Shown here one piece after another: positions 31,052-60,805 of a DNA stretch of 64,000 nt (position 1 is its first letter; each line of letters opens with the position of its first letter). This stretch comes from Streptomyces sp. NBC_00461 (GTDB taxonomy: Bacteria; Actinomycetota; Actinomycetes; Streptomycetales; Streptomycetaceae). The position numbers and the translations under genes are program-made. The stretch covers positions 6,171,001-6,235,000 of the forward strand of contig NZ_CP107902.1 in assembly GCF_036013935.1 (NCBI RefSeq). Direction: 5' to 3'. The notes under the pieces are model-generated. The model saw only the letters and a list, made by a program, of their open reading frames with translations, ran no database searches and was not told the origin of the DNA.

Positions 31052-31069
31052 ATCTACGCGCGTTACGAT
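31052..31069 (+). promoter_or_regulatory. CTACGCGCGTAG-type operator and promoter of the nucleoside transport operon
   Basis: ATCTACGCGCGTTACGAT: the palindrome core CTACGCGCGT is intact and the right end has TTAC instead of TAG. Its right edge contains TACGAT (31064-31069), a plausible -10. Bound protein would therefore block the promoter. The leader to GTG 31170 would be about 95 nt and carries the AAGGAG ribosome binding site. Confidence 0.65.
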
Positions 31070-31169
31070 GCCGCGAAGCCGACGCCGCAGGGGCGTGCAG
31101 GCCCGGGCACTGGCATGGTGCTCACATTAAGCGCCGACAAGGCGCTCAGGTCAGGTGAAGGAGCCTCCC

Positions 31170-32228
31170 GTGCGCCGGGTAGCCAAGCTTTCCGCTGCGT
31201 GTATCGCCACCGCAGCTCTTGCACTGACTGCCACAGCCTGTGGCAGCACCTCCTCCGACAATGGCAGCTCCTCGTCCTCCTCCTCCGGAGGCGGCAAGGG
31301 CGTCAAGATCGGTCTCGCCTTCGATGTCGGCGGCCGTGGTGACCGATCCTTCAACGACTCCGCCGCGCGTGGCGCCGACAAGGCCAAGTCCGAGTTCGGC
31401 GGCTCGATCAAGGAGCTGACCGCCAAGACCTCCGACACCGAGGCCGACCGCGAGCAGCGCCTGACCGACCTGGCGGACGCCGGGTACAACCCGATCGTCG
31501 GCGTCGGCTTCTCGTACGCCACCTCGATGGCCAAGGTCGCCGCGAAGTACCCGAAGGTCCACTTCGGCATCGTCGACTCGGTCGTGGACGCCCCGAACGT
31601 CGACAGCATCACCTTCACCGAGGAGCAGGGCTCGTACCTGGCCGGTGTCGCGGCGGCGCTGAAGACGAAGAAGGACCAGGTCGGCTTCATCGGTGGCGTC
31701 GACACCCCGCTGATCAAGAAGTTCGAGGCGGGCTACGTCCAGGGCGTCAAGGACACCAACGCCAAGGTCAAGGTCGACGTGCAGTACCTGACGCACGGCT
31801 CGGACCTCTCCGGCTTCTCCAGCCCCGACAAGGGCAAGGAGGCCGCGCAGGGCATGCTCGACAAGGGCGCCGACGTGATCTACACCGCGGCCGGCTCCTC
31901 CGGTAACGGCGCGATCGAGGCGGTCAACGGCGTCAAGGGCGCCTGGGCCATCGGCGTGGACTCCGACCAGTACAACATCCCGGGTCTGGCCAAGTACAAG
32001 GCCTCGATCCTGACCTCGATGGTCAAGAACGTCGACGTCGGTGTCTACGACTTCATCAAGTCCGTGCACGACGGCAAGCCGCTGACCGGCAACCAGATCT
32101 ACTCGCTCTCCAAGGGCGGCGTGAAGCTGGCGACCAGCGGTGGCTTCATCAACGACATCCAGCCCAAGCTGGACGCTGCGAAGAAGAAGATCGTCGACGG
32201 CGACATCAAGGTCAAGACCGCTCCGTGA
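31170..32228 (+). CDS. BMP-family nucleoside-binding lipoprotein of an ABC importer
   Basis: A 352-residue extracytoplasmic solute-binding protein of the BMP/PnrA/Med family, which binds purine or pyrimidine nucleosides. The lipobox ends in LTATACGS (Cys about residue 24). The mature domain shows IGLAFDVGGRGDRSFNDSAARGADKA, GYNPIVGVGFSYA and SITFTEEQGSYLAGVAAAL. GTG 31170 is chosen because AAGGAG lies 6 nt upstream. It is followed by a hairpin and then the ATPase and permease genes, so it is probably made in excess over them. A nucleoside operator lies upstream. Confidence 0.9.
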   Translation: MRRVAKLSAACIATAALALTATACGSTSSDNGSSSSSSSGGGKGVKIGLAFDVGGRGDRSFNDSAARGADKAKSEFGGSIKELTAKTSDTEADREQRLTDLADAGYNPIVGVGFSYATSMAKVAAKYPKVHFGIVDSVVDAPNVDSITFTEEQGSYLAGVAAALKTKKDQVGFIGGVDTPLIKKFEAGYVQGVKDTNAKVKVDVQYLTHGSDLSGFSSPDKGKEAAQGMLDKGADVIYTAAGSSGNGAIEAVNGVKGAWAIGVDSDQYNIPGLAKYKASILTSMVKNVDVGVYDFIKSVHDGKPLTGNQIYSLSKGGVKLATSGGFINDIQPKLDAAKKKIVDGDIKVKTAP

Positions 32229-32251
32229 CCTGACGGTTCCCGCCGGACCTC

Positions 32252-32291
32252 GGCTCGGCGAAGGGGCTCTCGACAAGCCCCTCGCCGAGCC
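32252..32291 (+). terminator. intra-operon hairpin after the lipoprotein gene
   Basis: GGCTCGGCGAAGGGGCT / AGCCCCTCGCCGAGCC, a stem of about 16 bp with one bulge and a 7-nt loop. It probably attenuates readthrough or protects the lipoprotein mRNA. Confidence 0.65.
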
Positions 32292-32308
32292 ATAACAATG
32301 TGTCAACT

Positions 32309-32320
32309 CTACGCGTGTAG
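32309..32320 (+). promoter_or_regulatory. CTACGCGCGTAG-type operator before the transporter ATPase
   Basis: CTACGCGTGTAG, one mismatch from the palindrome. A possible -10, TAGCGT, lies at 32337-32342, so the site would cover the -35 region of an internal promoter for the ATPase/permease/salvage genes. Confidence 0.6.
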
Positions 32321-32394
32321 CACGGAGTTGCCGCGCTAGCGTCGCCGACGCCTGCCCTCCCCTACGCAGCCCCTTTCCCCCAGGAGAGTGCGCC

Positions 32395-33978
32395 ATCAAC
32401 GCGTCCAGCCCTCCCGCTGCCGTCGAACTGCGCGGCATCACCAAACGCTTCCCCGGCGTCGTCGCCAACCGCGACATCGACATCACCGTCGCCGCGGGCA
32501 CCGTCCACGCCCTCTGCGGTGAGAACGGTGCCGGCAAGTCCACCCTGATGAAGATCCTCTACGGCATGCAGCAGCCGGACGAGGGCACGATCACGGTGGC
32601 CGGCGAGCGAGTGACCTTCAACAACCCCGCCGACGCCATCGCGCTCGGCATCGGCATGGTGCACCAGCACTTCATGCTCGCCGACAACCTCACCGTCCTG
32701 GAGAACGTCGTCCTCGGCGCGGAGAAGCTGTACGGCATCGGTGCCAAGGCGCGCACGAAGATCAAGGAGATCTCCGACGCGTACGGGCTGAACGTACGGC
32801 CCGACGTCCTCCTGGAGGAGCTCGGTGTCGCGGACCGCCAGCGCGTGGAGATCCTCAAGGTCCTCTACCGCGGCGCCAAGACCCTCATCCTCGACGAGCC
32901 CACCGCCGTCCTCGTGCCGCAGGAGGTCGACGCCCTCTTCGACAACCTGCGCGAGCTGAAGGCCGAGGGACTCACCGTCATCTTCATCTCCCACAAGCTG
33001 GGCGAAGTCCTGTCCGTGGCCGACGAGATCACCGTCATCCGGCGCGGCACCACGGTCGGCACGGTCGAGCCCCGGTCCACCACCGCCAAGCAGCTCGCCG
33101 AGCTGATGGTCGGCAGCCAGCTGCCCACGCCGGAGACCGAGGAGTCCACCGTCACGGACGTGGCGATGCTGACGGTGGACGGGCTGCACCTGAGCCAGAC
33201 GGACCTCGACGGCGTCGAGCGCGTCATCCTCGACGCCATCTCGCTCACCATCCACAAGGGCGAGGTCCTCGGCATCGCCGGTGTGGAGGGCAACGGCCAG
33301 TCCGAGCTGGTCGAGGCGATCGTCGGTATCCGCGCCCCCGACGCCGGCGCCGTCACGCTCGACGGCACCGACATCTCCCACGCCCCCACGCGTCGCCGCC
33401 GCGAGGCCGGCGTCGGCTACATCCCCGAGGACCGCCACCGCCACGGCCTGCTCCTCGAAGCACCGCTGTGGGAGAACCGCATCCTCGGCCATGTCACCGA
33501 GCGCCCCAACTCGCGCGGCCAGCTCCTCGACATCAAGGGCGCCCGCGGCGACACCGAGCGCATCATCCAGGCGTACGACGTCCGCACGCCCGGCATCGAC
33601 GTGACCGCGGCATCGCTGTCCGGCGGCAACCAGCAGAAGCTGATCGTCGGCCGCGAGATGAGCCACGCGCCCAAGCTGCTCATCGCGGCCCACCCCACCC
33701 GCGGCGTGGACGTCGGCGCGCAGGCCGCGATCTGGGACCACATCCGCGAGGCCCGCCGCGAGGGTCTGGCCGTGCTGCTGATCTCCGCCGACCTGGACGA
33801 GCTCATCGGGCTCTCCGACACCCTGCGGGTGATGTACCGCGGCCGCCTGGTCGCCGACGCCGACCCTGCCACGATCACCCCCGAGGAGCTGGGCTCCGCC
33901 ATGACGGGCGCGGCCACCGGCCACCTGGAGCACGCAGAGGCCACCGGCCAGGAGCACACAGAGGACGACGCCCGATGA
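32395..33978 (+). CDS. nucleoside ABC importer ATPase (two NBDs), apparent ATC start
   Basis: A 527-residue tandem-NBD ATPase of the RbsA/MglA-like nucleoside importer class. NBD1 has Walker A in CGENGAGKSTLMK and Walker B in LILDEPTAVL; NBD2 has a degenerate P-loop (GVEGNGQSEL) and LSGGNQQKLIVGRE. Starting at the first ATG in frame (32548) would remove Walker A. Upstream the frame is open back to a stop at 32293, and it contains no ATG, GTG or TTG. The coding sequence evidently begins at ATC 32395 (I-N-A-S-S-P-P), 7 nt after AGGAGA. The stop overlaps the first permease start (ATGA). Confidence 0.85.
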   Translation: MNASSPPAAVELRGITKRFPGVVANRDIDITVAAGTVHALCGENGAGKSTLMKILYGMQQPDEGTITVAGERVTFNNPADAIALGIGMVHQHFMLADNLTVLENVVLGAEKLYGIGAKARTKIKEISDAYGLNVRPDVLLEELGVADRQRVEILKVLYRGAKTLILDEPTAVLVPQEVDALFDNLRELKAEGLTVIFISHKLGEVLSVADEITVIRRGTTVGTVEPRSTTAKQLAELMVGSQLPTPETEESTVTDVAMLTVDGLHLSQTDLDGVERVILDAISLTIHKGEVLGIAGVEGNGQSELVEAIVGIRAPDAGAVTLDGTDISHAPTRRRREAGVGYIPEDRHRHGLLLEAPLWENRILGHVTERPNSRGQLLDIKGARGDTERIIQAYDVRTPGIDVTAASLSGGNQQKLIVGREMSHAPKLLIAAHPTRGVDVGAQAAIWDHIREARREGLAVLLISADLDELIGLSDTLRVMYRGRLVADADPATITPEELGSAMTGAATGHLEHAEATGQEHTEDDAR

Positions 33979-35102
33979 AGAAGCTGACCCAACGCATCGA
34001 CAAGGAGCGGCTGCTCCTCGGTATCGCGGCGCCGCTGCTGGCGATCGTCGCCGCGCTCGTCGTCACCGCCCTGGTCATCCTCGCCACCGGCAAGAACCCG
34101 GGCGCCGCCTTCAGCGACATGGCGACCTACGGCTCCGCGAGCGACAGCCAGGTCTACATCCTGAACAAGGCGACGACGTACTACCTGGCGGGCGTCTCGG
34201 TGGCCATCGGCTTCCGGATGAACCTGTTCAACATCGGCGTCGACGGCCAGTACCGCATCGCCGCGTTCTTCGCGGCGGTGCTCGGCGGCGCGCTGACCCT
34301 GCCGGGCTTCGTCTCCGTCCCGCTGATGATCCTCTGCGCGATGGCCGTGGGCGCCCTGTGGGCGGGCATCGCGGGCATCCTCAAGGTGACCCGGGGCGTC
34401 AGCGAGGTCATCTCGACCATCATGCTGAACTCCATCGCCACCGCGATCATCGCCTACCTGCTGCAGCCGGGGAAGCTCGCCGAACTGCAGAGCGGCGGCA
34501 CCGTGGTGTCGACCAAACCGCTGCCGAACGAGTCGTGGTTCTTCTCGTTCAACACGGGCGCGGCGGGCGAGGTCTGGGGCTTCATCGTGATCGCCGTGAT
34601 CGTCGGCGTCGCGTACTGGTTCGTGCTCGGCCGCACCCGCTTCGGCTTCGACCTGCGCACCGTCGGCCAGTCCGAGAGCGCCGCCGCCGCGAGCGGTGTC
34701 TCCGTCAAGAAGATGATCGCCACCAGCATGCTCATCTCGGGCGCGGTGGCCGGTCTGATCGGCATGCCGACCCTCCTCAACGACAGCCACCAGTTCAGCA
34801 ACGACTTCCCGTCGGGCATCGGCTTCACCGGTATCGCCATCGCGCTGCTGGGCCGCAACAGCCCCGTCGGTATCGCCCTCGGCGCCCTCCTGTGGGGCTT
34901 CCTGGAGCGCACCACCAACCACCTCGAGTTCGAGGGTTACGACAAGGAGATCCTCGGCGTCATCCAGGGCGTCATCGTCCTGTGCGTCGTGATCGCCTAC
35001 GAACTCGTACGCCGCTACGGCCTCAAGCGCCAGCAGCAGCGGGTCGGCGCCGAGCTCGCCGCCCAGGCCGCCGCCCCGACCGCGAAGCAGGAGGTGGCGT
35101 GA
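33975..35102 (+). CDS. nucleoside ABC importer permease 1
   Basis: A 375-residue membrane permease of the BPD_transp_2 family (RbsC/NupP-like), with about nine hydrophobic segments. It includes GFRMNLFNIGVDGQYRIAAFFAAVL and the cytosolic coupling region VTRGVSEVISTIMLNSIA. ATG 33975 overlaps the ATPase stop (ATGA), and its own stop overlaps the next gene (TGATG), so the transporter genes are translationally coupled. It forms the translocation channel with permease 2. Confidence 0.88.
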   Translation: MKKLTQRIDKERLLLGIAAPLLAIVAALVVTALVILATGKNPGAAFSDMATYGSASDSQVYILNKATTYYLAGVSVAIGFRMNLFNIGVDGQYRIAAFFAAVLGGALTLPGFVSVPLMILCAMAVGALWAGIAGILKVTRGVSEVISTIMLNSIATAIIAYLLQPGKLAELQSGGTVVSTKPLPNESWFFSFNTGAAGEVWGFIVIAVIVGVAYWFVLGRTRFGFDLRTVGQSESAAAASGVSVKKMIATSMLISGAVAGLIGMPTLLNDSHQFSNDFPSGIGFTGIAIALLGRNSPVGIALGALLWGFLERTTNHLEFEGYDKEILGVIQGVIVLCVVIAYELVRRYGLKRQQQRVGAELAAQAAAPTAKQEVA

Positions 35103-36388
35103 TGACTGCCACGATGACCGACACGCCGCCCCCCGCGGCACCCAAGGCGGACAGCGGCCGTTCCCGCTCGGGCCGGTCCGTCGGCCGGATCCTCACCATC
35201 CTGACCGGCGGCCTGATCCTGGTGGCCCTGGTCCGCGTTATCACCGGCGCCGACCAGCTCACCTCCGAGGGCCAGGTCTCCGCGGCCCTCGGCCTCGCCG
35301 TGCCGATCGGCCTCGCCGGTCTCGCGGGCCTGTGGTCCGAGCGGTCCGGTGTGGTCAACATCGGCCTCGAAGGCATGATGATCCTCGGCACCTTCGGCGC
35401 CGGCTGGATCGGCTGGCAGACCAACCCCTGGCTCGGCCTGCTCTGCGGCATCGGCTTCGGCGTCCTCGGCGGGCTGGTGCACGCCGTTGCGACCGTTACC
35501 TTCGGAGTCGACCACATCGTCTCCGGTGTCGCGGTCAACCTGCTCGCCCTGGGCACCACCCAGTACCTCGCCAAGCTCTTCTTCTCGGAGGGCAAGGCGG
35601 CGGACGCGGGCGGCAACCCCAAGCAGTCCCCGCCCGTGGACTCGCTGCCCACCTTCGACTTCCCCGGCCTCTCGGACGCCCTCAAGTCCGTCGAGAACCA
35701 CCACTGGTTCGTGATCTCCGACCTGGCGGGCATCCTCGGCGGCCTGGTCACCGACCTGTCCGTGGTGACGATCCTCGCCGTGGTCCTGTTCGTCGCCAGC
35801 GGGTGGCTGCTGTGGCGTACCCCCTTCGGCCTGCGGCTGCGCTCCTGCGGTGAGAACCCGATCGCCGCGGAGTCGCTCGGTGTCAACGTCTACCGGTACA
35901 AGTACATGGCCGTGGCGATCTCCGGCGGCCTCGCCGGACTCGGCGGCGCCTTCCTCGCACTGGTCACCTCGCACACCTACCTGGAGAACCAGACCGGCGG
36001 GCGCGGCTACATCGGCCTCGCGGCCATGATCTTCGGCAACTGGCGCCCCGGCGGCCTCGCCATGGGCGCGGGCCTGTTCGGCTACTCCGACGCGCTGCAG
36101 CTGCGCAACGGCGGCCAGACCGTCCACGCGCTGCTGCTCCTGCTGGTCGTGCTGCTCGCGGGGCTGGCCGGCTGGAAGCTGTACAAGAAGGCGCACTGGC
36201 AGGCCGGGATCAGCCTCATCGTGACCGCGCTCGTCCTGCTCTGGTACCTGTTCACCGACGAGGTCCCGAGCGACTTCGTGGGCGCCACCCCGTACGTCGT
36301 CACGCTGCTCGTGCTGTCGCTGTCCGCGCAGCGCCTGCGGATGCCCAAGGCAGACGGCATGCGCTACCGCAAGGGCCAGGGCAAGTGA
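35102..36388 (+). CDS. nucleoside ABC importer permease 2
   Basis: A 428-residue BPD_transp_2 permease (NupQ-like). Family segments include GLWSERSGVVNIGLEGMMILGTFGAGWIG, FGVDHIVSGVAVNLLALGTTQYL and GRGYIGLAAMIFGNWRPGG. It is longer than usual because of two extra hydrophobic segments near the C-terminus. ATG 35102 overlaps the previous stop. The C-terminus overlaps the cytidine deaminase start (GTGA at 36385), physically linking uptake to salvage. Confidence 0.88.
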   Translation: MTATMTDTPPPAAPKADSGRSRSGRSVGRILTILTGGLILVALVRVITGADQLTSEGQVSAALGLAVPIGLAGLAGLWSERSGVVNIGLEGMMILGTFGAGWIGWQTNPWLGLLCGIGFGVLGGLVHAVATVTFGVDHIVSGVAVNLLALGTTQYLAKLFFSEGKAADAGGNPKQSPPVDSLPTFDFPGLSDALKSVENHHWFVISDLAGILGGLVTDLSVVTILAVVLFVASGWLLWRTPFGLRLRSCGENPIAAESLGVNVYRYKYMAVAISGGLAGLGGAFLALVTSHTYLENQTGGRGYIGLAAMIFGNWRPGGLAMGAGLFGYSDALQLRNGGQTVHALLLLLVVLLAGLAGWKLYKKAHWQAGISLIVTALVLLWYLFTDEVPSDFVGATPYVVTLLVLSLSAQRLRMPKADGMRYRKGQGK

Positions 36389-36786
36389 CCGCGCCCGCCG
36401 AGGTCGACTGGGAGGCGCTGCGCGAGGTGGCCCGCGAGGCCATGTCCCACGCGTACGCCCCCTACTCGGGCTACCCGGTGGGGGTCGCCGCCCTGGTCGA
36501 CGACGGCCGTACGGTCTCCGGCTGCAACGTCGAGAACGCCTCCTACGGTCTCGGCCTGTGCGCCGAGTGCGGGCTGGTCTCGCAGCTGCAGCGGACCGGC
36601 GGTGGCAGGCTGACGCACTTCACCTGCGTCGACGGACACGGCGAGATCCTGGTCCCGTGCGGCCGCTGCCGCCAGCTGCTGTACGAGTTCGGGGGTCCGG
36701 ATCTCCTCCTGGAGACCCCGGAGGGAATCCTCCCCCTCTCGGCGATGCTGCCCCAGGCCTTCGGCCCGGGCCATCTCACCAAGTAA
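36385..36786 (+). CDS. cdd: cytidine deaminase
   Basis: A 133-residue homotetrameric-type cytidine deaminase converting (deoxy)cytidine to (deoxy)uridine. Zinc and catalytic residues are visible in NVENASYGLGLCAECG (Cys and catalytic Glu) and PCGRCRQLLYEF (two Cys). The start of the domain has AYAPYSGYPVGVAAL. GTG 36385 overlaps the permease stop. It is the first enzyme acting on imported cytidine, followed by thymidine phosphorylase. Confidence 0.93.
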   Translation: MTAPAEVDWEALREVAREAMSHAYAPYSGYPVGVAALVDDGRTVSGCNVENASYGLGLCAECGLVSQLQRTGGGRLTHFTCVDGHGEILVPCGRCRQLLYEFGGPDLLLETPEGILPLSAMLPQAFGPGHLTK

Positions 36787-36857: not shown

Positions 36858-38141
36858 ATGGCCATGGACGCCATCTCCGTCATCCGCACCAAGCGGGACC
36901 GCGGCGAACTCAGCGACGAGCAGATCGACTGGGTCATCGACGCGTACACCCGCGGGGAGGTCGCCGACGAGCAGATGTCCGCGCTCGCGATGGCCATCCT
37001 GCTCAACGGCATGAACCGCCGCGAGATCGCCCGCTGGACCGCCGCGATGATCAACTCCGGTGAGCGCATGGACTTCTCGTCCCTGTCCCGCCCGACGGCC
37101 GACAAGCACTCCACGGGCGGCGTCGGCGACAAGATCACCCTCCCGCTCGCCCCGCTGGTCGCGGCGTGCGGCGCGGCCGTCCCGCAGCTGTCGGGCCGGG
37201 GCCTCGGCCACACCGGCGGCACGCTCGACAAGCTGGAGTCGATCCCCGGCTGGCGTGCCCTGCTCTCCAACGAGGAGATGCTCTCCGTACTCGACGGCAC
37301 CGGCGCGGTGATCTGCGCGGCGGGCGACGGCCTGGCCCCGGCGGACAAGAAGCTGTACGCGCTCCGCGACGTCACCGGCACGGTCGAGGCGATCCCGCTG
37401 ATCGCCTCCTCGATCATGTCGAAGAAGATCGCCGAGGGCACCGGCTCCCTGGTCCTGGACGTGAAGGTGGGCACGGGCGCCTTCATGAAGACGATCGAGG
37501 ACGCGCGGGAACTCGCCTCGACGATGGTGGGCCTGGGCACCGACCACGGCGTGAAGACGGTCGCCCTGCTCACGGACATGGCCACCCCCCTCGGCCGCAC
37601 CGCCGGCAACGCCCTTGAGGTCCGCGAGTCGGTGGAGGTCCTGGCGGGCGGCGGCCCGTCGGACGTCGTGGAACTCACCCTCGCCCTGGCCCGCGAAATG
37701 CTGGACGCGGCCGGTGTGAAGGACGCCGACCCGGCGAAGGCCCTGGCCGGCGGCTCGGCGATGGACGTCTGGCGCCGCATGATCGCGGCCCAGGGCGGCG
37801 ACCCGGACGCGCCCCTGCCCACCTCCCGCGAACAGCACGTCATCACGGCCCCCTCCTCGGGCGTCCTGACCCGCCTCGACGCTTACGGCATCGGCGTCGC
37901 CGCCTGGCGCCTGGGCGCGGGGCGTGCCCGCAAGGAGGACCCGGTGCAGGCCGGCGCGGGCGTGGAGATGCACGCCAAGCCGGGCGACACGGTGACGGCC
38001 GGCCAGCCCCTGCTCACCCTCCACACCGACACCCCCGACCGCTTCGAATACGCGCTGCAGGCGGTGCAGGGTTCGTACGACATCGGCGCCGCGGGCGCGG
38101 AGTTCACGGCCTCGCCGGTGGTGCTGGAGCGGATCGCCTGA
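36858..38141 (+). CDS. deoA: thymidine phosphorylase
   Basis: A 427-residue pyrimidine nucleoside phosphorylase cleaving thymidine/deoxyuridine (and possibly uridine) with phosphate to base and (deoxy)ribose-1-phosphate. The family signature SGRGLGHTGGTLDKLESIPG is present, with KHSTGGVGDKITLPLAPLVAACG (phosphate site) before it and a C-terminal PYNP domain (ARKEDPVQAGAGVEMHAKPGD). GGAAGGA lies 9 nt before ATG 36858. It is the last gene of the nucleoside operon and ends at a strong bidirectional terminator. Confidence 0.94.
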   Translation: MAMDAISVIRTKRDRGELSDEQIDWVIDAYTRGEVADEQMSALAMAILLNGMNRREIARWTAAMINSGERMDFSSLSRPTADKHSTGGVGDKITLPLAPLVAACGAAVPQLSGRGLGHTGGTLDKLESIPGWRALLSNEEMLSVLDGTGAVICAAGDGLAPADKKLYALRDVTGTVEAIPLIASSIMSKKIAEGTGSLVLDVKVGTGAFMKTIEDARELASTMVGLGTDHGVKTVALLTDMATPLGRTAGNALEVRESVEVLAGGGPSDVVELTLALAREMLDAAGVKDADPAKALAGGSAMDVWRRMIAAQGGDPDAPLPTSREQHVITAPSSGVLTRLDAYGIGVAAWRLGAGRARKEDPVQAGAGVEMHAKPGDTVTAGQPLLTLHTDTPDRFEYALQAVQGSYDIGAAGAEFTASPVVLERIA

Positions 38142-43263: not shown

Positions 43264-44025
43264 TTACCGGCGCAACGACTTCCCGAACCCTGCGGCCAAG
43301 GGCATCCGCAGTCCCAAGGGAGGCGGAGCCGCCAACGCATCCTCCACGGGCCGCGAGAAAGCCCGCCCGAACAGTGTCCCCATCACGAAGTCCTCGGCCA
43401 GCGCGTGCACTTCGCTCCGGTACTGATGCAACCCGTGGCCGTCGGAGTGCACTTCGAACCTGCACACGTCCCGGTTCGCCTTCTTCGCCCGCGCCGCCAG
43501 CCGGAAGGACAGCTCGGGGTCGGAGACGCCGTCGTTCGTGCCGTGCACGATCAGCACCCGCCGCCCCGCGAGCTGCCTCACCGGTTCCGGCGAGGCGGCG
43601 ACGTCCTCCTCCGGCAGCCAAGGGGCGATCGCCAGCACGGAGTTGACGGCCTCGTGACCGCCCGCGCGCAGTGCCGCCCGGCCGCCCATGTCGAGACCGG
43701 CGAGGCAGACGGGAACGTCCCCGTAGCGCCGTACGGCCTCGTCGGCGGCCCAGGAGGCGTCGCGGGCCAGATGCGCCTCGTTGCCGTTCCAGCCGCGGTA
43801 GCGGTAGTGCACGACATGGGTGGCCAGCCCCTCGTCGCGCCCCGCGCGGGCCAGGCGGCGGCCCAACGCGCGTACGGATGCGGTCGCCAGCATGGGGGAG
43901 GGTCTGCGGGCCGACTCCTCGTCACCGCCGGGGAGCAGCAGGACCACTGCGCTCACCGCCGCCGGTTCCGGGCCGAGTGCCCTTCCCAGCCGGGCCCGTC
44001 GAACCGGCGTCGCTTGGTGTGCCAT
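43264..44025 (-). CDS. alpha/beta-hydrolase-like protein with Asp at the nucleophile elbow
   Basis: A 253-residue alpha/beta hydrolase. The strand before the nucleophile elbow reads VPVCLAGLDMGGRAALRAG, so the expected GxSxGG serine is Asp (GLDMGG). The acid (VLIVHGTNDGVSDPE) and His (HSDGHGLHQY) positions are present. An Asp nucleophile is known in dehalogenase and epoxide-hydrolase branches, but this protein lacks their cap-domain signature; it may instead be catalytically altered. ATG 44025 lies 6 nt after CACTGT on the minus strand. It is divergent from add. Confidence 0.75.
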   Translation of the reverse strand: MAHQATPVRRARLGRALGPEPAAVSAVVLLLPGGDEESARRPSPMLATASVRALGRRLARAGRDEGLATHVVHYRYRGWNGNEAHLARDASWAADEAVRRYGDVPVCLAGLDMGGRAALRAGGHEAVNSVLAIAPWLPEEDVAASPEPVRQLAGRRVLIVHGTNDGVSDPELSFRLAARAKKANRDVCRFEVHSDGHGLHQYRSEVHALAEDFVMGTLFGRAFSRPVEDALAAPPPLGLRMPLAAGFGKSLRR

Positions 44026-44110: not shown

Positions 44111-44132
44111 CTACGCGCGTAGGAGTTAGAGT
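44111..44132 (+). promoter_or_regulatory. operator and promoter of add
   Basis: A perfect palindrome, CTACGCGCGTAG (44111-44122), is followed 4 nt later by the -10 box TAGAGT (44127-44132), 6 nt before ATG 44139. The operator occupies the promoter spacer, and the transcript is probably leaderless. Confidence 0.75.
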
Positions 44133-44138
44133 GCGGAA

Positions 44139-45305
44139 ATGACGAGCCAGACCATCTCGAACACCCCGACGCCGGATCAGATCCGCCGGGCGCCGAAGGT
44201 TCTGCTGCACGACCACCTCGACGGCGGCCTCCGCCCGGGGACGATCGTCGAACTCGCCCGTGACGCGGGCTACTCACGCCTCCCCGAGACCGACCCCGGC
44301 AAGCTCGGCGTCTGGTTCCGGGAGGCCGCCGACTCCGGTTCGCTGGAGCGGTACCTGGAGACCTTCTCCCACACCGTCGGCGTCATGCAGACCCGGGACG
44401 CGCTCGTCCGGGTCGCCCGCGAGTGCGCCGAGGACCTCGCCGAGGACGGCGTCGTGTACGCCGAGGTGCGCTACGCCCCCGAGCAGCACCTGGAGGGCGG
44501 GCTCGGCCTGGAAGAGGTCGTCGAGGCCGTCAACGAGGGCTTCCGCGAAGGGGAGCGGCTGGCCCGGGCGAACGGTCACCGGATCCGCGTCGGCGCCCTG
44601 CTCACCGCCATGCGGCACGCCGCCCGCGCCCTGGAGATCGCCGAACTCGCCAACCGGTACCGGGACCTGGGCGGCGGTGGAGTCGTCGGATTCGACATCG
44701 CGGGCGCGGAGGCCGGTTACCCGCCCACCCGGCACCTCGACGCCTTCGAGTACCTCAAGCGCGAGAACAACCACTTCACCATCCATGCCGGCGAAGCCTT
44801 CGGGCTGCCGTCCATCTGGCAGGCCCTGCAGTGGTGCGGCGCAGACCGGCTGGGGCACGGCGTGCGCATCATCGACGACATCCAGGTGCGGGCCGACGGC
44901 TCGGTGAAGCTCGGCCGGCTCGCCTCGTACGTACGGGACAAGCGCATCCCGCTCGAACTGTGCCCGAGCTCCAACCTCCAGACCGGAGCGGCGACGTCCT
45001 ACACCGAGCATCCGATCGGTTTGCTGCGCAGGCTGCACTTCCGAGCTACCGTGAATACGGACAATCGGCTCATGTCCGGCACGAGTATGAGTCAGGAATT
45101 CGAGCATCTTGTCGACGCATTCGGTTACTCGCTCGATGACATGCAGTGGTTCTCCGTCAATGCGATGAAATCAGCGTTCATTCCTTTCGATGAACGACTG
45201 GCGATGATCAATGACGTCATCAAGCCCGGATATGCCGAGCTGAAGTCCGAATGGCTGTTCCAGCAAACTGCCTCCACCAGCGGTTCTGCGCCCACGGAGG
45301 AGTGA
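44139..45305 (+). CDS. add: adenosine deaminase
   Basis: A 388-residue zinc enzyme converting (deoxy)adenosine to (deoxy)inosine. Metal and catalytic motifs are [16 protein letters not shown] (two His), [13 protein letters not shown] (His, Glu), [10 protein letters not shown] (His) and [17 protein letters not shown] (Asp). It stands alone behind a nucleoside operator and ends at a perfect 13-bp hairpin. Its inosine product feeds the purine nucleoside phosphorylase at 59944-60768. Confidence 0.95.
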
Positions 45306-48989: not shown

Positions 48990-49663
48990 TGAGGCGTGTC
49001 CAGCCGGTAGCCCACGCCGCGCACGGTACGGATCAGCGTCGGGGACGACGGCACGTCCTCGACCTTGGCGCGCAGCCGCTGGACACACGCGTCCACCAGC
49101 CGGGAGTCACCGAGGTAGTCGTGCTCCCACACCAGGCGCAGCAGCTGCTGCCGGGACAGCGCCTGCCCCGGCCGCCTGCTCAGCTCCAGCAGCAGCCTCA
49201 GCTCTGTCGGGGTGAGCTGCAGGTCCTCGCCGTTCTTCGTCACGGTCATCGCCGCGCGGTCGATGACCAGGCTGCCGAAGCTCGCCGCGTCGGTCGACTC
49301 CCGCTCGCCGCGCCGCAGCACGGCCCGGATCCGGGCGTCCAGCACCCGCCCCTGGATCGGCTTGACCACATAGTCGTCCGCGCCGGACTCCAGCCCGACG
49401 ACGATGTCGATGTCGTCGCTGCGCGCGGTCAGCAGGATGATCGGCAGCTGGTCCGTGCGCCGGATGCGCCGGCACACCTCGAACCCGTCGATGCCGGGCA
49501 GCATCACGTCCAGCACGATCAGGTCCGGCCGCTGCTCGCGCAGGAGCTTCAGACCGTCCTCTCCGGTGGCAGCGGTGGCAACCCGGTGTCCCTGGCGCGT
49601 AAGAGACAGCTCCAGGGCCGTACGGATGGCGTCGTCGTCTTCGATCAGCAACAGGGAAGGCAC
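48986..49663 (-). CDS. afsQ1: AfsQ1 response regulator
   Basis: A 225-residue OmpR/PhoB-type regulator. The receiver domain has LLIEDDDAIR, phospho-acceptor Asp in LIVLDVMLPGIDG (about residue 52), the TAR loop and KPIQGRVLDARI; the C-terminal winged helix ends LIRTVRGVGYRLD. GTG 49663 is chosen: it yields MPSLLLIEDD and lies 7 nt after CAGAAT (49671-49676, minus), a leaderless arrangement. The sequence is nearly identical to the S. coelicolor AfsQ1 that I recall. It is divergent from sigQ. Confidence 0.94.
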   Translation of the reverse strand: MPSLLLIEDDDAIRTALELSLTRQGHRVATAATGEDGLKLLREQRPDLIVLDVMLPGIDGFEVCRRIRRTDQLPIILLTARSDDIDIVVGLESGADDYVVKPIQGRVLDARIRAVLRRGERESTDAASFGSLVIDRAAMTVTKNGEDLQLTPTELRLLLELSRRPGQALSRQQLLRLVWEHDYLGDSRLVDACVQRLRAKVEDVPSSPTLIRTVRGVGYRLDTPQ

Positions 49664-49670
49664 GGGGCTC

Positions 49671-49676
49671 ATTCTG
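49671..49676 (-). promoter_or_regulatory. -10 box of the afsQ operon
   Basis: CAGAAT on the minus strand, 7 nt before GTG 49663. The same box and spacing occur before the PH-domain gene at 55510. Confidence 0.5.
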
Positions 49677-49747
49677 GCCCATGGTGGGGTGGGGTTTCGA
49701 CTCCTGCTACGGACCAGTACGTCTACGTGCGCATACCGCTCTTCTCT

Positions 49748-49798
49748 GTGACCGCGCTGTGCCCCGCATACGGGCGACCCCTGTGACAGGTCTGTGAC
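49748..49798. promoter_or_regulatory. AfsQ1 binding boxes in the afsQ1-sigQ gap
   Basis: GTGAC-AGGTCT-GTGAC (49783-49798) matches the published AfsQ1 consensus GTnAC-n6-GTnAC exactly. A second copy, GTGAC-CGCGCT-GTGCC (49748-49763), matches with one change. Their starts are 35 bp apart. They lie upstream of both afsQ1 and sigQ, as expected for autoregulation and sigQ activation. Confidence 0.8.
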
Positions 49799-49905
49799 AG
49801 TCGGCGGACACGGCCATGAAGGTGCGTTGGCAAGCTTCTCGGCACAGGCAAGGAAGCACCGCCTGAGCAAGCCGAACACCGGAAGTCCACGACGGGGGGC
49901 GCGAG

Positions 49906-52024: not shown

Positions 52025-52954
52025 TCAGTACGACGAGCCGGACGCGCCCAGCGAACCCGTCGGGTGCCAGACGGTCTTCGTCTCCAGGAACGCCGTCATG
52101 CGGTCGATGCCGGGAGTCGCCGTCCAGTCGTCCACAGGCTGTGGACGAAGAACGCGCTTCAGGTTGTCCGCCGCCGCGATCTCCAGTTCCTTCGCCAGGC
52201 CGTCGTCGGTGTCGGCGCCCGCCAGGTCGATCGCGTTGACGTCCTGGTGCGCGGCGAGCGGCGCGGCGATCTCCGCCGTACGGCCCGACAGCACGTTGAC
52301 CACACCGCCGGGCAGGTCGGACGTGGCGAGCACCTCGCCCAGCGACAGCGCCGGGAGCGGGGACCTCTCGCTCGCGATCACGATCGCCGTGTTACCGGTG
52401 GCGATCACCGGGGCGAGGACCGAGACCAGGCCCAGGAAGGACGACTTCTGGGGTGCGAGGACGGCGACGACGCCCGTCGGCTCCGGGGAGGAGAGGTTGA
52501 AGAACGGGCCCGCCACCGGGTTCCCGCCGCCGACCACCTGGGCGATCTTGTCGGTCCAGCCCGCGTACCAGACCCAGCGGTCGATCGCGGCGTCGACGAG
52601 CGCGGCCGCCTTCGCCGTGTTCGACTTCGCCTTCGCGGGCGACAGGCCCTCGGCGTCGGCGACCTCCCGGACGAACTGCTCCCTACGGCCCTCCAGCATC
52701 TCGGCGATGCGGTAGAGGATCTGTCCGCGGTTGTACGCCGTCGCGCCCGACCACGCCCCGAACGCCTTGCGGGCGGCGACCACCGCGTCACGGGCGTCCT
52801 TGCGGGACGAAAGGGGCACGTTCGCCAGCCAGTTGTCCTTCGAGTCCGTCACCTCGTACACCCGGCCGCTCTCGGAACGCGGGAACTTCCCGCCGACGTA
52901 CAGCTTGTAGGTCTTGAAGACGCTCAGACGCTGCTGCTCGGACTTCTCAGACAT
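52025..52954 (-). CDS. truncated, non-catalytic aldehyde dehydrogenase-like protein
   Basis: A 309-residue ALDH-fold protein. It retains the N-terminal NAD-binding part (YVGGKFPRSESGRVYEV, EPTGVVAVLAPQKSSFLGLVSVLAPVIATGNTAIV), but it lacks the catalytic Glu motif (LELGGK), the catalytic Cys motif and the C-terminal oligomerisation part. Its ATG (52954) overlaps the stop of the full-length ALDH gene by 8 nt. The pair resembles a split version of ALDH16, in which a catalytic ALDH is followed by an inactive ALDH-like domain. It is probably a structural or regulatory subunit. Confidence 0.82.
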   Translation of the reverse strand: MSEKSEQQRLSVFKTYKLYVGGKFPRSESGRVYEVTDSKDNWLANVPLSSRKDARDAVVAARKAFGAWSGATAYNRGQILYRIAEMLEGRREQFVREVADAEGLSPAKAKSNTAKAAALVDAAIDRWVWYAGWTDKIAQVVGGGNPVAGPFFNLSSPEPTGVVAVLAPQKSSFLGLVSVLAPVIATGNTAIVIASERSPLPALSLGEVLATSDLPGGVVNVLSGRTAEIAAPLAAHQDVNAIDLAGADTDDGLAKELEIAAADNLKRVLRPQPVDDWTATPGIDRMTAFLETKTVWHPTGSLGASGSSY

Positions 52955-54383
52955 CGAGGTACGCCTCCAGACCGTGACGGCCGCCCTCGCGGCCGAAGCC
53001 CGACTCCTTGTAGCCGCCGAACGGCGACGTCGGGTCGAACTTGTTGAACGTGTTGGACCAGATGACCCCGGCCCGGAGCTTGCCCGCGACCGCCAGGATG
53101 CGCGAGCCCTTCTCCGTCCAGATGCCCGCCGACAGGCCGTACGGCGTGTTGTTGGCCTTCGCCACGGCCTCGTCCGGGGTGCGGAAGCTGAGGACGGACA
53201 GCACGGGGCCGAAGATCTCGTCGCGGGCGACGGTGTGCGCCTGGGTGACGTTCGTGAAGAGCGTCGGGGCGAACCAGTAGCCGGACGAGGGGAGTTCACA
53301 GGCCGGTGACCAGCGCTCGGCGCCCTCCGCCTCGCCCCGCTCGACGAGCGAGGTGATGCGGGAGAGCTGCTCCTCGGAGTTGATCGCGCCGATGTCCGTG
53401 TTCTTGTCCAGCGGGTCGCCGAGGCGGAGGGTGGAGAGCCTGCGCTTCAGGGACTCCAGCAGCTCGTCCTGGATCGACTCCTGGACGAGGAGACGGCTGC
53501 CCGCGCAGCACACCTGGCCCTGGTTGAAGAAGATGCCGCTGACGATCCCCTCCACCGCCTGGTCGATCGGGGCGTCGTCGAAGACGATGTTGGCGCCCTT
53601 GCCGCCCAGTTCGAGCGTGAGCTTCTTGCGGGTCCCCGCGACCGTCTTCGCGATCTCCTTGCCTACGGCCGTGGAGCCGGTGAAGGCGACCTTGTTCACG
53701 TCCGGATGCGCCACGAGCGCGGCGCCCGCGTCGCCGTATCCCGGAAGGATGTTGACGACACCCTTGGGCAGGCCGGCCTGGCGGCAGATGTCCGCGAAGA
53801 ACAGCGCGGAGAGCGGGGTCGTCTCGGCGGGCTTCAGCACCACCGTGTTGCCGGTCGCCAGGGCCGGGGCGATCTTCCACGCCAGCATCAGCAGCGGGAA
53901 GTTCCAGGGGATGACCTGCCCGGCGACGCCGAGGGGGCGGGGGTGCCCGCCGAAGCCGGCATGGTCGAGCTTGTCGGCCCAGCCCGCGTAGTAGAAGAAG
54001 TGCGCGGCGACCAGGGGGAGGTCGGCGTCGCGCGTCTCCTTGATGGGCTTGCCGTTGTCCAGCGTCTCCAGGACGGCCAGTTCGCGGCTGCGCTCCTGGA
54101 TGATCCGGGCGATGCGGAACAGGTACTTGGCGCGCTCGGCGCCCGGCAGCGCGGACCACTCCCCGAAGGCCTTGCGGGCGGCCCTCACGGCGCGGTCGAC
54201 GTCCGCCTCGCCCGCCTGGGCGATCTCGGAGAGGACCTCCTCGGTCGACGGCGAGACCGTCTTGAAGACCTTGCCGTCGGCCGCCTCCGTGAACTCGCCG
54301 TCGATGAACAGGCCGTAGGAGGGGGCGATGTCGACGATCGAGCGGGACTCGGGCGCCGGTGCGTAATCGAATGCGGATGCCAT
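52947..54383 (-). CDS. aldehyde dehydrogenase
   Basis: A 478-residue NAD(P)-dependent aldehyde dehydrogenase with all catalytic elements: VIPWNFPLLMLAWKIAPALATGN, KLTLELGGKGANIVF (general base Glu), FFNQGQVCCAGSRL (nucleophile Cys) and the C-terminal NTFNKFDPTSPFGGYKESGFGREGG. It lies 5 nt after deoC, so acetaldehyde released by DeoC is the obvious substrate (giving acetate). It is coupled to the truncated ALDH-like gene downstream. Confidence 0.92.
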   Translation of the reverse strand: MASAFDYAPAPESRSIVDIAPSYGLFIDGEFTEAADGKVFKTVSPSTEEVLSEIAQAGEADVDRAVRAARKAFGEWSALPGAERAKYLFRIARIIQERSRELAVLETLDNGKPIKETRDADLPLVAAHFFYYAGWADKLDHAGFGGHPRPLGVAGQVIPWNFPLLMLAWKIAPALATGNTVVLKPAETTPLSALFFADICRQAGLPKGVVNILPGYGDAGAALVAHPDVNKVAFTGSTAVGKEIAKTVAGTRKKLTLELGGKGANIVFDDAPIDQAVEGIVSGIFFNQGQVCCAGSRLLVQESIQDELLESLKRRLSTLRLGDPLDKNTDIGAINSEEQLSRITSLVERGEAEGAERWSPACELPSSGYWFAPTLFTNVTQAHTVARDEIFGPVLSVLSFRTPDEAVAKANNTPYGLSAGIWTEKGSRILAVAGKLRAGVIWSNTFNKFDPTSPFGGYKESGFGREGGRHGLEAYLDV

Positions 54384-54388: not shown

Positions 54389-55354
54389 TCAGTCCACCGT
54401 CACGTAGTCGGGTCCGGAGTAGCGGCCGGTGGCCAGCTTCTGACGCTGCATCAGCAGGTCGTTCAGGAGCGAGGAGGCGCCGAAGCGGAACCAGTGGTTG
54501 TCCAGCCAGTCCTCGCCCGCCGTCTCGTTGACGATGACCAGGAACTTCACGGCGTCCTTGGAGGTACGGATACCGCCCGCGGGCTTTACGCCGACCTGGA
54601 TGCCGGTCTGGGCGCGGAAGTCACGGACCGCCTCCAGCATCAACAGCGTGTTCGCGGGGGTGGCGTTGACGGCGACCTTGCCGGTGGACGTCTTGATGAA
54701 GTCCGCGCCCGCCAGCATGCCGAGCCAGCTCGCGCGCCGGATGTTGTCGTACGTCGACAGCTCACCGGTCTCGAAGATGACCTTCAGGCGGGCGGCGCCC
54801 GAGGCCTCCTTCACGGCGACGATCTCGTCGTACACCTTCAGGTAGTTGCCCGCGAGGAACGCCCCGCGGTCGATGACCATGTCGATCTCGTCGGCGCCCG
54901 CGGCGACCGCGTCGCGCACGTCGGCCAGCTTCACGTCGAGCGCGGCGCGGCCCGCCGGGAAGGCGGTGGCGACCGAGGCGACCTTCACGGTCGAGCCGGC
55001 GACGGCCTCCTTGGCGGCGGGCACCATGTCCGGGTAGACGCAGACGGCCGCGGTCGAGGGGGTCGTACGGTCGGTGGGGTCGGGGCGGACCGCCTTGGCG
55101 CCGAGCGCCCGGACCTTGCCCGGGGTGTCCGCGCCTTCCAGCGTCGTCAGGTCGACCATCGAGATGGCGAGGTCGATGGCGTACGCCTTCGCGGTCGTCT
55201 TGATGGAACGGGTGCCGAGGGACGCGGCCCGCCCCTCCAGGCCGACCGCGTCGACGCCGGGCAGCCCGTGGAGGAAGCGGCGCAGCGTGCTGTCGGACGC
55301 GGCGACGTCCGAGAGTGTGTGAGCTGCTGTGGGTGCATTGGTGGGCATGGTCAC
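54389..55354 (-). CDS. deoC: deoxyribose-phosphate aldolase
   Basis: A 321-residue class I aldolase splitting 2-deoxyribose-5-phosphate into acetaldehyde and glyceraldehyde-3-phosphate. Key segments are AGADEIDMVIDRGAFLAG, the Schiff-base Lys in GADFIKTSTGKVAVNAT and the second Lys in IQVGVKPAGGIRTSKDAVKF. GTG 55354 lies 6 nt after TATGCT, and a perfect nucleoside operator adjoins that box. It heads the deoC-ALDH-ALDH-like operon, completing deoxynucleoside catabolism. Confidence 0.94.
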   Translation of the reverse strand: MTMPTNAPTAAHTLSDVAASDSTLRRFLHGLPGVDAVGLEGRAASLGTRSIKTTAKAYAIDLAISMVDLTTLEGADTPGKVRALGAKAVRPDPTDRTTPSTAAVCVYPDMVPAAKEAVAGSTVKVASVATAFPAGRAALDVKLADVRDAVAAGADEIDMVIDRGAFLAGNYLKVYDEIVAVKEASGAARLKVIFETGELSTYDNIRRASWLGMLAGADFIKTSTGKVAVNATPANTLLMLEAVRDFRAQTGIQVGVKPAGGIRTSKDAVKFLVIVNETAGEDWLDNHWFRFGASSLLNDLLMQRQKLATGRYSGPDYVTVD

Positions 55355-55360: not shown

Positions 55361-55379
55361 AGCATATCTACGCGCGTAG
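55361..55379 (-). promoter_or_regulatory. operator and promoter of deoC
   Basis: Minus-strand -10 TATGCT (55361-55366), 6 nt before GTG 55354; a perfect CTACGCGCGTAG (55368-55379) is separated from it by one base. Confidence 0.75.
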
Positions 55380-56241: not shown

Positions 56242-56275
56242 GCCGGCCAGGGGCCGGGCCGCCGGATCCCGGCCT

Positions 56276-58031: not shown

Positions 58032-58049
58032 GGCCGGTTCAGCGTGAAC

Positions 58050-58073
58050 GGGGGTGCCCTTGCGGGCACCCCC
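58050..58073. terminator. bidirectional terminator
   Basis: GGGGGTGCCC-TTGC-GGGCACCCCC, a perfect 10-bp stem, between the membrane-protein gene and the mutase gene (convergent). Confidence 0.85.
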
Positions 58074-58077
58074 TCGG

Positions 58078-59709
58078 TCAGATGCCTGCGGCGGCCGACA
58101 GGTCCCGCTTGATCGCCGTGAGCAGCTCGTTCGCGGTGGTGTGGGCCGTGGGGAGGTCGGCGTGGGTCGCGACGGGGACCACGACCTCCAGGTAGCACTT
58201 CAGCTTGGGCTCCGTGCCGCTCGGGCGGACGATCACGCGGGCGCCGTCGAGCGTGTAGCGCAGGCCGTCGGTGGGCGGGAGCCTGTCGGTGCCCTGGTTG
58301 AGATCCTCGGCCCGGGTGATGGCGATGCCCGCGAGCTCGGTCGGGGGCTGCTCACGGAGCTGCTCCATGGCGCGGGCGATGACGGAGAGATCCTCAACCC
58401 GGACCGAGAGCTGGTCGGTGGCGTGCAGCCCGTGCTCCACGGAGAGGTCGTCGAGGAAGTCGAGGAGGGTGCGGCCCTCCTCCTTGAGCTGCGAGGCGAG
58501 CTCCGTGATCAGGAGGGCGGCCGTGATCCCGTCCTTGTCGCGTACGCCGTCGGGGTCGACGCAGTAGCCGAGGGCCTCCTCGTAGCCGAAGCGCAGGCCC
58601 TCGACGCGGGCGATCCACTTGAAGCCGGTGAGCGTTTCCTCGTACGGCAGACCCGCCTTTTCGGCGATCCGCCCGAGGAGGGAGGACGACACGATCGACT
58701 CGGCGAACGTGCCCTGTGCGCCGCGCCGGACGAGATGCGCGGCGAGCAGCGCGCCGACCTCGTCGCCGCGCAGCATCCGCCACTCCCCGTCGTCCTTGAC
58801 GGCGACGGCGCAGCGGTCGGCGTCGGGGTCGTTGGCGATGATCAGGTCCGGGTCGGTCTCGCGGGCCTTCGCGAAGGCCAGGTCCATGGCGCCCGGCTCT
58901 TCCGGGTTGGGGAAGGCGACGGTGGGGAAGTCCGGGTCGGGCTCGGCCTGTTCGGCGACGATGGTGGGTTGGGGGAAACCGGCGCGGGCGAAGGCGGCGA
59001 GGAGGGTGTCCTTGCCCACGCCGTGCAACGCTGTGTAGACGGTGCGGGCGGTGCGGGGGGAGTCGGCGGCGAGTACGGCGTCCGTGCGGGCCAGGTAGGC
59101 GTTGAGGACGCTGTCGTCGAGGGTTTCCCAGCCGGTGTCCGGGCGCGGGATGTCGTGGAGCGATGTGATCGCCTGGATTTCGGCTGCGATCTCCGTGTCC
59201 GCGGGCGGCACGATCTGGGAGCCGTCGCCGAGGTAGACCTTGTAGCCGTTGTCGCGGGGCGGGTTGTGGCTGGCGGTGACCTCCACGCCGGCGACCGCGC
59301 CCAGGTGCCTTATGGCGTAGGCGAGGACGGGGGTGGGGAGGGGGCGGGGGAGTACGGCGGCGCGGAAGCCGGCGCCGGTCATCACGGCGGCCGTGTCGCG
59401 GGCGAAGTCGGCTGACTTGTGGCGGGCGTCGTAGCCGATGACCACCAGGCCGCCCTGCCGGCCCTTGGCGTTGAGGTACGCGGCGAGACCTGCGGCGGCT
59501 CGGACCACGACCGAACGGTTCATGCGCATGGGGCCGGCGCCGAGTTCGCCGCGCAGGCCCGCGGTGCCGAACTGGAGGGTGCCGCTGAAGCGGGCGGTGA
59601 GTTCGGTGACGTCTCGCGCCTCGATGAGCTTGGCGAGCTCGTCACGGGTGTCCGGGTCGGGGTCCTCGGCCAGCCAGGTCTTGGCCCGGGCGATGAGATC
59701 GTCTTGCAC
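58078..59709 (-). CDS. phosphohexomutase superfamily enzyme, likely phosphopentomutase (PGM2-like)
   Basis: A 543-residue alpha-D-phosphohexomutase. It has FGTAGLRGELGAGPMRMN, the phosphoserine loop TASHNPPRDNGYKVY, the metal loop DPDADRCAVAV, the sugar loop GYEEALGY and the phosphate loop VIVRPSGTEPKLK. Length and order fit the PGM2/YhxB-like branch, which includes phosphopentomutases. It follows purine nucleoside phosphorylase, and no deoB gene is nearby. The likely reaction is therefore (deoxy)ribose-1-phosphate to 5-phosphate, though such genes are often annotated phosphomannomutase. GTG 59709 is the start. The 234-nt gap upstream holds no gene. Confidence 0.83.
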   Translation of the reverse strand: MQDDLIARAKTWLAEDPDPDTRDELAKLIEARDVTELTARFSGTLQFGTAGLRGELGAGPMRMNRSVVVRAAAGLAAYLNAKGRQGGLVVIGYDARHKSADFARDTAAVMTGAGFRAAVLPRPLPTPVLAYAIRHLGAVAGVEVTASHNPPRDNGYKVYLGDGSQIVPPADTEIAAEIQAITSLHDIPRPDTGWETLDDSVLNAYLARTDAVLAADSPRTARTVYTALHGVGKDTLLAAFARAGFPQPTIVAEQAEPDPDFPTVAFPNPEEPGAMDLAFAKARETDPDLIIANDPDADRCAVAVKDDGEWRMLRGDEVGALLAAHLVRRGAQGTFAESIVSSSLLGRIAEKAGLPYEETLTGFKWIARVEGLRFGYEEALGYCVDPDGVRDKDGITAALLITELASQLKEEGRTLLDFLDDLSVEHGLHATDQLSVRVEDLSVIARAMEQLREQPPTELAGIAITRAEDLNQGTDRLPPTDGLRYTLDGARVIVRPSGTEPKLKCYLEVVVPVATHADLPTAHTTANELLTAIKRDLSAAAGI

Positions 59710-59943
59710 GGTCGGTCCAGCCTCTCGTGTGGGTCGTGATGCCTGCGGCGCCTGTGCGGCTTCGGTGGGGGTGTGCGTCGCGCCTCGGGTCGGTGGGCGG
59801 GTCGGGGCCGCGGTGGGGGTGTCCGTCCTCGGTCCGGCGGTGCTGTTTGCTGAGTTGTGCCCGGTGACGGACGCCGGCCGCTGCGGGCGGACACCCCCAC
59901 CCCGTCCCCTGCTCGCCGTGCGCGGCTGACGGCCCAGGTGCGC

Positions 59944-60768
59944 TCAGATACGGCCCAGGACCTGCGCCAGCAGCGAGCCCATCCGTGTCGCCGAGTCGCG
60001 GCCCGCCTGGAGGACCTCTTCGTGGTTCAGGGGCTCGCCCGTCATGCCGGCCGCGAGGTTGGTCACCAGGGAGATGCCCAGTACCTCGGCGCCCGCCTCG
60101 CGTGCGGCGATCGCTTCGAGGACCGTCGACATGCCCACCAGGTCCGCGCCGATCACCCGGGCCATGCGGATCTCGGCCGGCGTCTCGTAGTGCGGGCCGG
60201 GGAACTGCGCGTAGACGCCCTCCTCCAGGGTGGCGTCGATCTCCTTGCACAGGGCGCGCAGGCGGGGGGAGTAGAGGTCGGTGAGGTCGACGAAGTTCGC
60301 GCCGATGATCGGGGACGTCGCCGTCAGGTTGATGTGATCGCTGATCAGGACCGGCTGGCCGGGGCGCATGCCCTCGCGCAGGCCGCCGCAGCCGTTGGTG
60401 AGGACGATCGTCTTGCTGCCGGCGGCGACGGCCGTGCGGACGCCGTGTGCCACGGCGGCGACGCCTCGGCCCTCGTAGTAGTGGGTGCGGCCCAGGAAGA
60501 CCAGGACGCGCTTGGCGCCGATGCGGTATGAGCGGATCTTGCCGCCGTGGCCCTCCACCGCCGGCGGCGGGAAACCGGGCAGCTCGGTGACCTGGAACTC
60601 GGCATCGGGTGCGCCGAGGGCGTCCACGGCCGGTGCCCAGCCAGAGCCCATCACGAGGGCGACGTCGTGGGTCTCGGCGCCGGTCAGGTCGCGCAGGCGT
60701 GCGGCGGCGTCGGCGGCGGCGCCGTGGGGGTCGCCCTGGATGTCGTCCGGAAGAAGAGATGCGTTCAC
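59944..60768 (-). CDS. punA: purine nucleoside phosphorylase, trimeric type
   Basis: A 274-residue phosphorylase cleaving (deoxy)inosine and (deoxy)guanosine to base and pentose-1-phosphate. It has [11 protein letters not shown] (phosphate site), [53 protein letters not shown] and [14 protein letters not shown], the family II (trimeric) pattern. GTG 60768 is chosen because TACTCT lies 7 nt upstream and the domain starts soon after; a start at 60819 would overlap the operator and promoter. Upstream is a perfect CTACGCGCGTAG; downstream is the mutase. Confidence 0.93.
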
Positions 60769-60775
60769 GCGGTCG

Positions 60776-60805
60776 AGAGTAGCCGGTCGGGGCCTACGCG
60801 CGTAG
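60776..60805 (-). promoter_or_regulatory. operator and promoter of the purine nucleoside phosphorylase gene
   Basis: Minus-strand -10 TACTCT (60776-60781), 7 nt before GTG 60768; a perfect CTACGCGCGTAG (60794-60805) covers the -35 region. Confidence 0.75.

Follow-up and report, generated by a model that had tools for sequence, protein, structure and literature searches.

The 12 bp palindrome CTACGCGCGTAG, which lies before nucleoside uptake and breakdown genes of Streptomyces sp. NBC_00461, is on comparative grounds near certain to be a real operator, and one that is ancient within the Streptomycetaceae. It is very likely, judging from its association with one class of LacI genes, to be the operator of a 340 amino acid LacI-family repressor (G000:C1:4624601-4625620), which is encoded 1.6 Mb from the window, next to a gene that we take to be glnR-like from the neighbourhood inspected in this genome alone. 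From its context the repressor gene would correspond to S. coelicolor SCO4158. The preliminary description of this DNA had proposed one repressor for all of the units concerned; a common regulator is well supported by the comparisons, and it is probably this distant LacI-family protein. A presumed function is thus offered for a widespread Streptomyces regulator so far called ccpA, nucleoside nutrition in antibiotic producers can be put to a direct test as a regulon, and a collection of helix-operator pairs becomes available for LacI specificity.

Occurrence and conservation of the palindrome

In the window, meaning the whole 64 kb stretch of DNA that was analysed, perfect copies precede add, deoC and punA, and copies with one and two mismatches precede the transporter ATPase and the BMP lipoprotein genes, all five where the preliminary description had put them (Table 1). 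It saw no copy elsewhere in the window, which is correct for perfect copies but overlooked a two-mismatch match at 43864-43875, inside a minus-strand ORF (43264-44025) and probably due to chance. Also present in the window are a response regulator (48986-49879) and a kinase (47406-49088), presumably AfsQ1 and AfsQ2.

Table 1. Predicted operators and associated genes in the 64 kb window
Feature	Position	Strand	Remarks
Variant predicted operator CTACGCGCGTTA before BMP gene	31054..31065	+	Two mismatches; same variant in 30/30 orthologue loci
BMP/PnrA-like nucleoside-binding lipoprotein	31155..32228	+	PF02608
Predicted operator CTACGCGTGTAG before transporter ATPase	32309..32320	+	One mismatch; perfect in relatives (18 copies)
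ABC ATPase	32395..33978	+	PF00005 (ORF from 32548); apparent ATC start
First permease	33468..35102	+	PF02653; ORF as listed, true start later
Second permease	34358..36388	+	PF02653; ORF as listed, true start later
Cytidine deaminase	36385..36786	+	PF00383; NF004064 over cut-off
Thymidine/pyrimidine-nucleoside phosphorylase	36858..38141	+	NF004490 over cut-off
Perfect predicted operator of add	44111..44122	+	Centre about 23 bp before add start
Adenosine deaminase (add)	44139..45305	+	PF00962; NF006847 over cut-off
Aldehyde dehydrogenase, downstream of deoC	52947..54383	-	PF00171
Deoxyribose-phosphate aldolase (deoC)	54389..55354	-	TIGR00126 over cut-off
Perfect predicted operator of deoC	55368..55379	-	Centre about 22 bp before deoC start; 29/30 orthologues perfect
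Phosphohexomutase-family enzyme, downstream of punA	58078..59709	-	NCBIfam matches below cut-off; pentomutase role inferred
Purine nucleoside phosphorylase (punA)	59944..60768	-	TIGR01698 over cut-off
Perfect predicted operator of punA	60794..60805	-	Approximately -35 region
DeoR-family regulator beside lpd and punA	63119 to beyond window end		PF08220, PF00455

Imperfect copies, when simply counted, behave as would be expected if the palindrome had arisen in G+C-rich DNA by chance or as part of coding sequence. Allowing up to three mismatches, the shuffled sequences contain more matches than the window; at up to two, the window has six against a shuffle mean of 4.5; and in the whole genome (10,374,860 bases) there are 27 copies with up to one mismatch against 41 for the reversed motif, which is no excess. 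Near-matches alone therefore carry no weight, and the BMP copy needs other support. This is provided by its orthologues, since the identical variant precedes every one of the 30 that were read, and the BMP copy is therefore taken to be real. Perfect copies behave differently: the window has three, 100 dinucleotide shuffles yielded none, and the sites have been retained while their flanks have diverged. A chance or coding origin is refuted by this conservation and retains a negligible probability.

The genome has five perfect copies, three of them in the window. The fourth, at 9,702,824, falls among the initial codons of a further adenosine deaminase gene (add2; PF00962; the start is our own reading), and the fifth, at 9,673,297, has a one-mismatch partner 23 bp off and precedes a gene for a presumably secreted protein. 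Among the 22 one-mismatch copies, 20 were inspected; of these, five are in front of or beside plausible genes (purS, a 5′-nucleotidase-type gene, a nuclease-like gene, a permease and a carbon-nitrogen hydrolase) and 15 do not.

The palindrome is likewise rare throughout the genus Streptomyces, with two to six perfect copies in each of the 121 genus genomes (121/121), where the reversed motif occurs zero to three times per genome. In the Streptomycetaceae all but one of 61 genomes contain a perfect copy, as do 16 of 17 genera. The sole family genome without one (G129) possesses the LacI gene; its deoC is preceded by a site with one mismatch and its punA by a site with two. Outside the genus, 9 of the 177 genomes in the class sample contain a perfect copy. 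Retention before orthologous genes, as a regulon of the kind first described would entail, was seen in loci that were found without use of the motif: deoC has a perfect site in 29 of 30 and a single mismatch in the other, the BMP variant is invariant, and the 30 purS loci have one perfect site, 22 with one mismatch, four with two and three with five. At these loci the reversed control always had three or more mismatches. Each set comprises the 30 best-scoring loci (matches were found in 61, 46 and 60 of 61 genomes for deoC, BMP and purS, respectively), and the sets therefore cover the nearer half of the family only. Comparison thus establishes the conservation of the site, together with partly kept flanks within the family (T in 67 % and A in 25 % of 72 oriented sites).

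The predicted operator is an even palindrome with a central CG (half sites CTACGC and GCGTAG), with T and A as flanks in the 14-mer used for scanning. Operators of the LacI family typically have this form. At add, deoC and punA the site adjoins a promoter box, in agreement with the preliminary description, the boxes having been read by eye: at add it is immediately 5′ of a TAGAGT box that is followed by the ATG, at punA it is 5′ of a TACTCT-type box, and at deoC it continues into TAGATATGCT. These positions are repressor-like.

For the ABC ATPase, a stop at 32293 is followed by no in-frame ATG, GTG or TTG until the ATG at 32548, which is already past the Walker A motif; an in-frame ATC is preceded by a GGAG box. 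The reading GEC[AV]I at this codon is shared by all 18 relatives compared, many of which have an in-frame GTG or other start elsewhere, and its retention suggests a conserved ATC start codon.

Target genes and proposed mechanism

Scattering before unrelated genes, which would speak against a regulon, is not what was found. Comparison identifies a coherent target set, as 95 of 101 perfect family copies (mostly one locus per genome from listings, with 20 picked by hand, the present genome included and duplicates possible) lie at a nucleoside, purine, transporter or one secreted-protein gene, within 400 bp before to 60 bp after the predicted start. They are distributed over punA (30), add (18), the transporter ATPase (18), add2 (8, the site being just inside the assumed start), the secreted-protein gene (7), purN (7), deoC (6) and purS (1). 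The remaining six could be assigned to no target, one of them (L046) being beside the punA neighbour gene at a contig end. The purS site is degenerate, with two or fewer mismatches in 27 of 30 loci. Purine biosynthesis (purS and purN) and a presumably secreted protein also belong to the proposed regulon. The purN gene, named from its sequence, has a perfect copy in front of it in genera g14 and g15 (L095, L096, L477, L480, L481, L482 and L484).

The gene for the presumably secreted protein is preceded by tandem copies 23 bp apart (L005:9275-9309), and the site is kept in relatives of other genera. Its product has a weak, below-cut-off MAM-like match; a search with it gave matches for 7602 of 8000 scored candidates, and the 120 listed are mostly named 'hydrolase', with a few immune inhibitor A or hypothetical proteins and many unnamed. 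One-mismatch copies were also seen before a 5′-nucleotidase-type phosphoesterase (L139:1509-1520), before a carbon-nitrogen hydrolase (L144:1522), divergent to a xanthine/uracil-type permease (L132:1466) and, with a two-mismatch partner, before a nuclease-like gene (L128:1452 and 1495). The product of the last has no Pfam match and, in our judgement, resembles extracellular nucleases.

We infer LacI binding, repression, the operon extents and a ligand as follows. A LacI dimer would bind between the -35 and -10 of promoters that mostly look leaderless, and would there block transcription of the transporter-cdd-deoA unit, add, deoC-aldehyde dehydrogenase, punA-mutase, add2 and the presumably secreted protein gene; purSQL would also be repressed, more weakly. 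A ribose- or nucleoside-derived ligand would presumably release the protein, so that products of nucleic acid breakdown would induce their own uptake and degradation. The inclusion of purSQL, which serves synthesis, together with catabolic genes is physiologically odd. A wider proposal is that SCO4158/'ccpA' runs family-wide nucleic acid scavenging (secreted hydrolases, import, phosphorolysis, purSQL/purN) by sensing a ribose-derived metabolite, with a helix-operator pair common to Actinobacteria and Gammaproteobacteria; as a whole it is put forward tentatively, at slightly short of an even chance.

Candidate readers of the site

The DeoR-family regulator encoded beside lpd and punA was the first candidate, and was dropped on the evidence of loci outside the family and of the LacI association in other bacteria. 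In E. coli, DeoR controls deoCABD. That this protein reads the palindrome would fit its position next to punA, the presence of an orthologue in 61 of 61 family genomes and a helix that does not vary among four family loci compared. Outside the family, however, the motif is absent at up to one mismatch from all 17 orthologue loci, and neither punA, deoC nor add has a match there within 12-18 kb; several of these loci have ABC ATPase genes; a search for palindromes around these outside-family deoR genes did not return the motif, and no site precedes deoR in four family loci read. The protein scores 71 against a cut-off of 244 for the NCBIfam DeoR model, and in a further phylum the palindrome is likewise found with LacI genes. 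The DeoR reading is accordingly very improbable. The promoter of the DeoR gene (L017:2000-2130, L123-L125) has a similar segment in four loci, CTGAAA/CTGATA..GGTCG or GGTC..GTTAC, a possible operator for DeoR itself.

The LacI-family candidate matches PF00356 (52 bits) and PF13377 (107 bits), both over cut-off, and its PDB matches are CcpA, PurR and LacI. A contig scan for the exact 14-mer TCTACGCGCGTAGA returned at least 119 stretches, and 40 of the 119 listed encode a LacI with the helix xAVV[ST]Y. Named hosts among these 40 include Pantoea, Serratia, Erwinia, Providencia, Pseudomonas and others of the Gammaproteobacteria, and Bifidobacterium, Rothia, Arthrobacter, Kibdelosporangium and a Microbacteriaceae MAG of the Actinobacteria. 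In the loci read closely, the site precedes LacI, ribokinase-like-LacI or MFS-LacI units (MFS by Pfam in one, the other names from sequence); in L187 a porin-like gene intervenes. In the remaining 79, no LacI of this kind was found within at most 8 kb of the site, and many are probably chance copies. In a MAG labelled Klebsiella pneumoniae, possibly mislabelled, the 14-mer is present on three contigs, twice on one of them (L167, L174 and L191); none of its contigs is among the 40 LacI matches.

LacI matches to the Kibdelosporangium protein occur in 61 of 61 family genomes, mostly several in each. With the paralogue at 7.31 Mb (L278) left out, the candidate and its counterparts have the helix TSTAVVSYV[IV]NNGPRPV in all 19 family loci read, from 14 genera, as well as in each of 19 genus loci. 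In the present genome the candidate alone among 42 LacI helices has AVVSY, the nearest others being EALVSY and TAAVSY; there could be cross-talk with the 7.31 Mb paralogue (TSEALVSY).

Among the nine non-genus class genomes that have a perfect copy, only G244 belongs to those with a close LacI match, and no other of the nine has three copies. Its LacI gene has the same helix, TSTAVVSYVVNGGPRPV, and lies 14.7 kb from one copy and 16.1 kb from another; neither of these directly precedes a gene that is obviously for nucleosides, and the third copy has the look of a chance match in a simple repeat. The LacI gene and one site (L417, L418) are near queE-like, IMP dehydrogenase-like and PfkB-like genes, named from sequence, which we take to be a possible deazapurine nucleoside cluster.

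The pairing of helix and operator was compared in outgroup genomes that were not chosen by site, according to the residue at position 17 of the helix, which we take to be LacI numbering. This comparison demonstrates covariation, as altered helices go with altered palindromes in most relatives read. Where position 17 is V or T, LacI is preceded by one or more CTAC half sites, in the form TCTACACGTGTTGA (L408 and L410, where the sites are beside genes resembling nucleoside hydrolases) or TCTACTCGAATAGA (L411, L414 and L415). With P or E the half site is CAAC, in CAACACGAGTTG, CAACTCGTGTTG or GCAACACGTGTTGC (L407, L409, L413, L416 and L278 of this genome). No palindrome was seen before LacI in L412 (T, G175) or L406 (T, G244). 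The STAVVSY helix is not sufficient alone: G299, G317 and G335 (..TND) have TCTACTCGAATAGA instead, and these three, like G175, are all without a perfect CTACGCGCGTAG. Since the first three are T-type, residues beyond position 17 must matter. Most of the xAVVSY loci compared have no palindrome immediately before LacI, the site lying further upstream or elsewhere.

If another repressor read the site, the LacI association would be coincidental. Such a reading would account for the many stretches that lack this LacI and for the candidate's own promoter, which has no clear auto-operator but a degenerate half site only, CCGCGTAG. It leaves unaccounted for the recurrence of one LacI class beside the 14-mer and the covariation of helix and operator, and little probability is therefore assigned to it. 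The LacI-family protein is the preferred reader.

Relation to known regulators

The S. coelicolor counterpart SCO4158 is, by the title of a 2012 paper, said to be connected with an antibiotic pigment. A proteomics study notes, in the section available, that this LacI gene is downstream of glnR and might regulate it (PMC9739823). Elsewhere the gene is named ccpA and its promoter is used as constitutive, the available part of that paper stating no nucleoside role for it (PMC4365011). SCO4920, by name the S. coelicolor DeoR gene, is reported to be at the centre of a predicted network that includes bldN (PMC3224704). The deoxyribose-phosphate aldolase SCO4914 is reported to be reduced in a mutant of argR (PMC3293853) and is listed among WblC-repressed promoters (PMC7157823). 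The SCO4920-bldN network and the decrease of SCO4914 in the argR mutant count against a simple picture. Literature searches found no description of a Streptomyces nucleoside regulon among the matches listed, and the matches for the palindrome string were judged unrelated by title or the start of the abstract.

The candidate fails the CcpA model TIGR01481 (173.8 against a cut-off of 442.35), and is below the NCBIfam cut-offs for PurR (177/501), RbsR (185/382), CytR (174/436) and UriR (124/550). In the E. coli DeoR regulon, deoC, nucleoside phosphorylase and nucleoside uptake are under one repressor. The gene set is the same here, but the reader is probably of the LacI family and not of the DeoR family. 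E. coli PurR is also a LacI-family protein with purine genes among its targets, as purS and purN are here; unlike those of PurR, the targets here are mainly catabolic. In Bifidobacterium, RbsR2 and RbsR3 are LacI regulators with a proposed shift from ribose to ribonucleoside genes, according to the portion of text available, and their consensus operator, TGATAAAACGTTTTATCA, is unlike the present site (PMC4746261). The survey of Ravcheev et al. (2014; PMC4052901) describes AdeR, HpxR and UriR as LacI nucleoside groups and, as far as its accessible text goes, included Streptomycetaceae. For AdeR and HpxR that text gives neither a motif nor members, and the Streptomyces regulon may already have been predicted in silico, among those groups (AdeR/HpxR) or in RegPrecise. 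In the same partial text AdeR, HpxR, UriR and CytR are LacI-family regulators of nucleoside utilisation (PMC4052901), and in this they are like the candidate proposed here.
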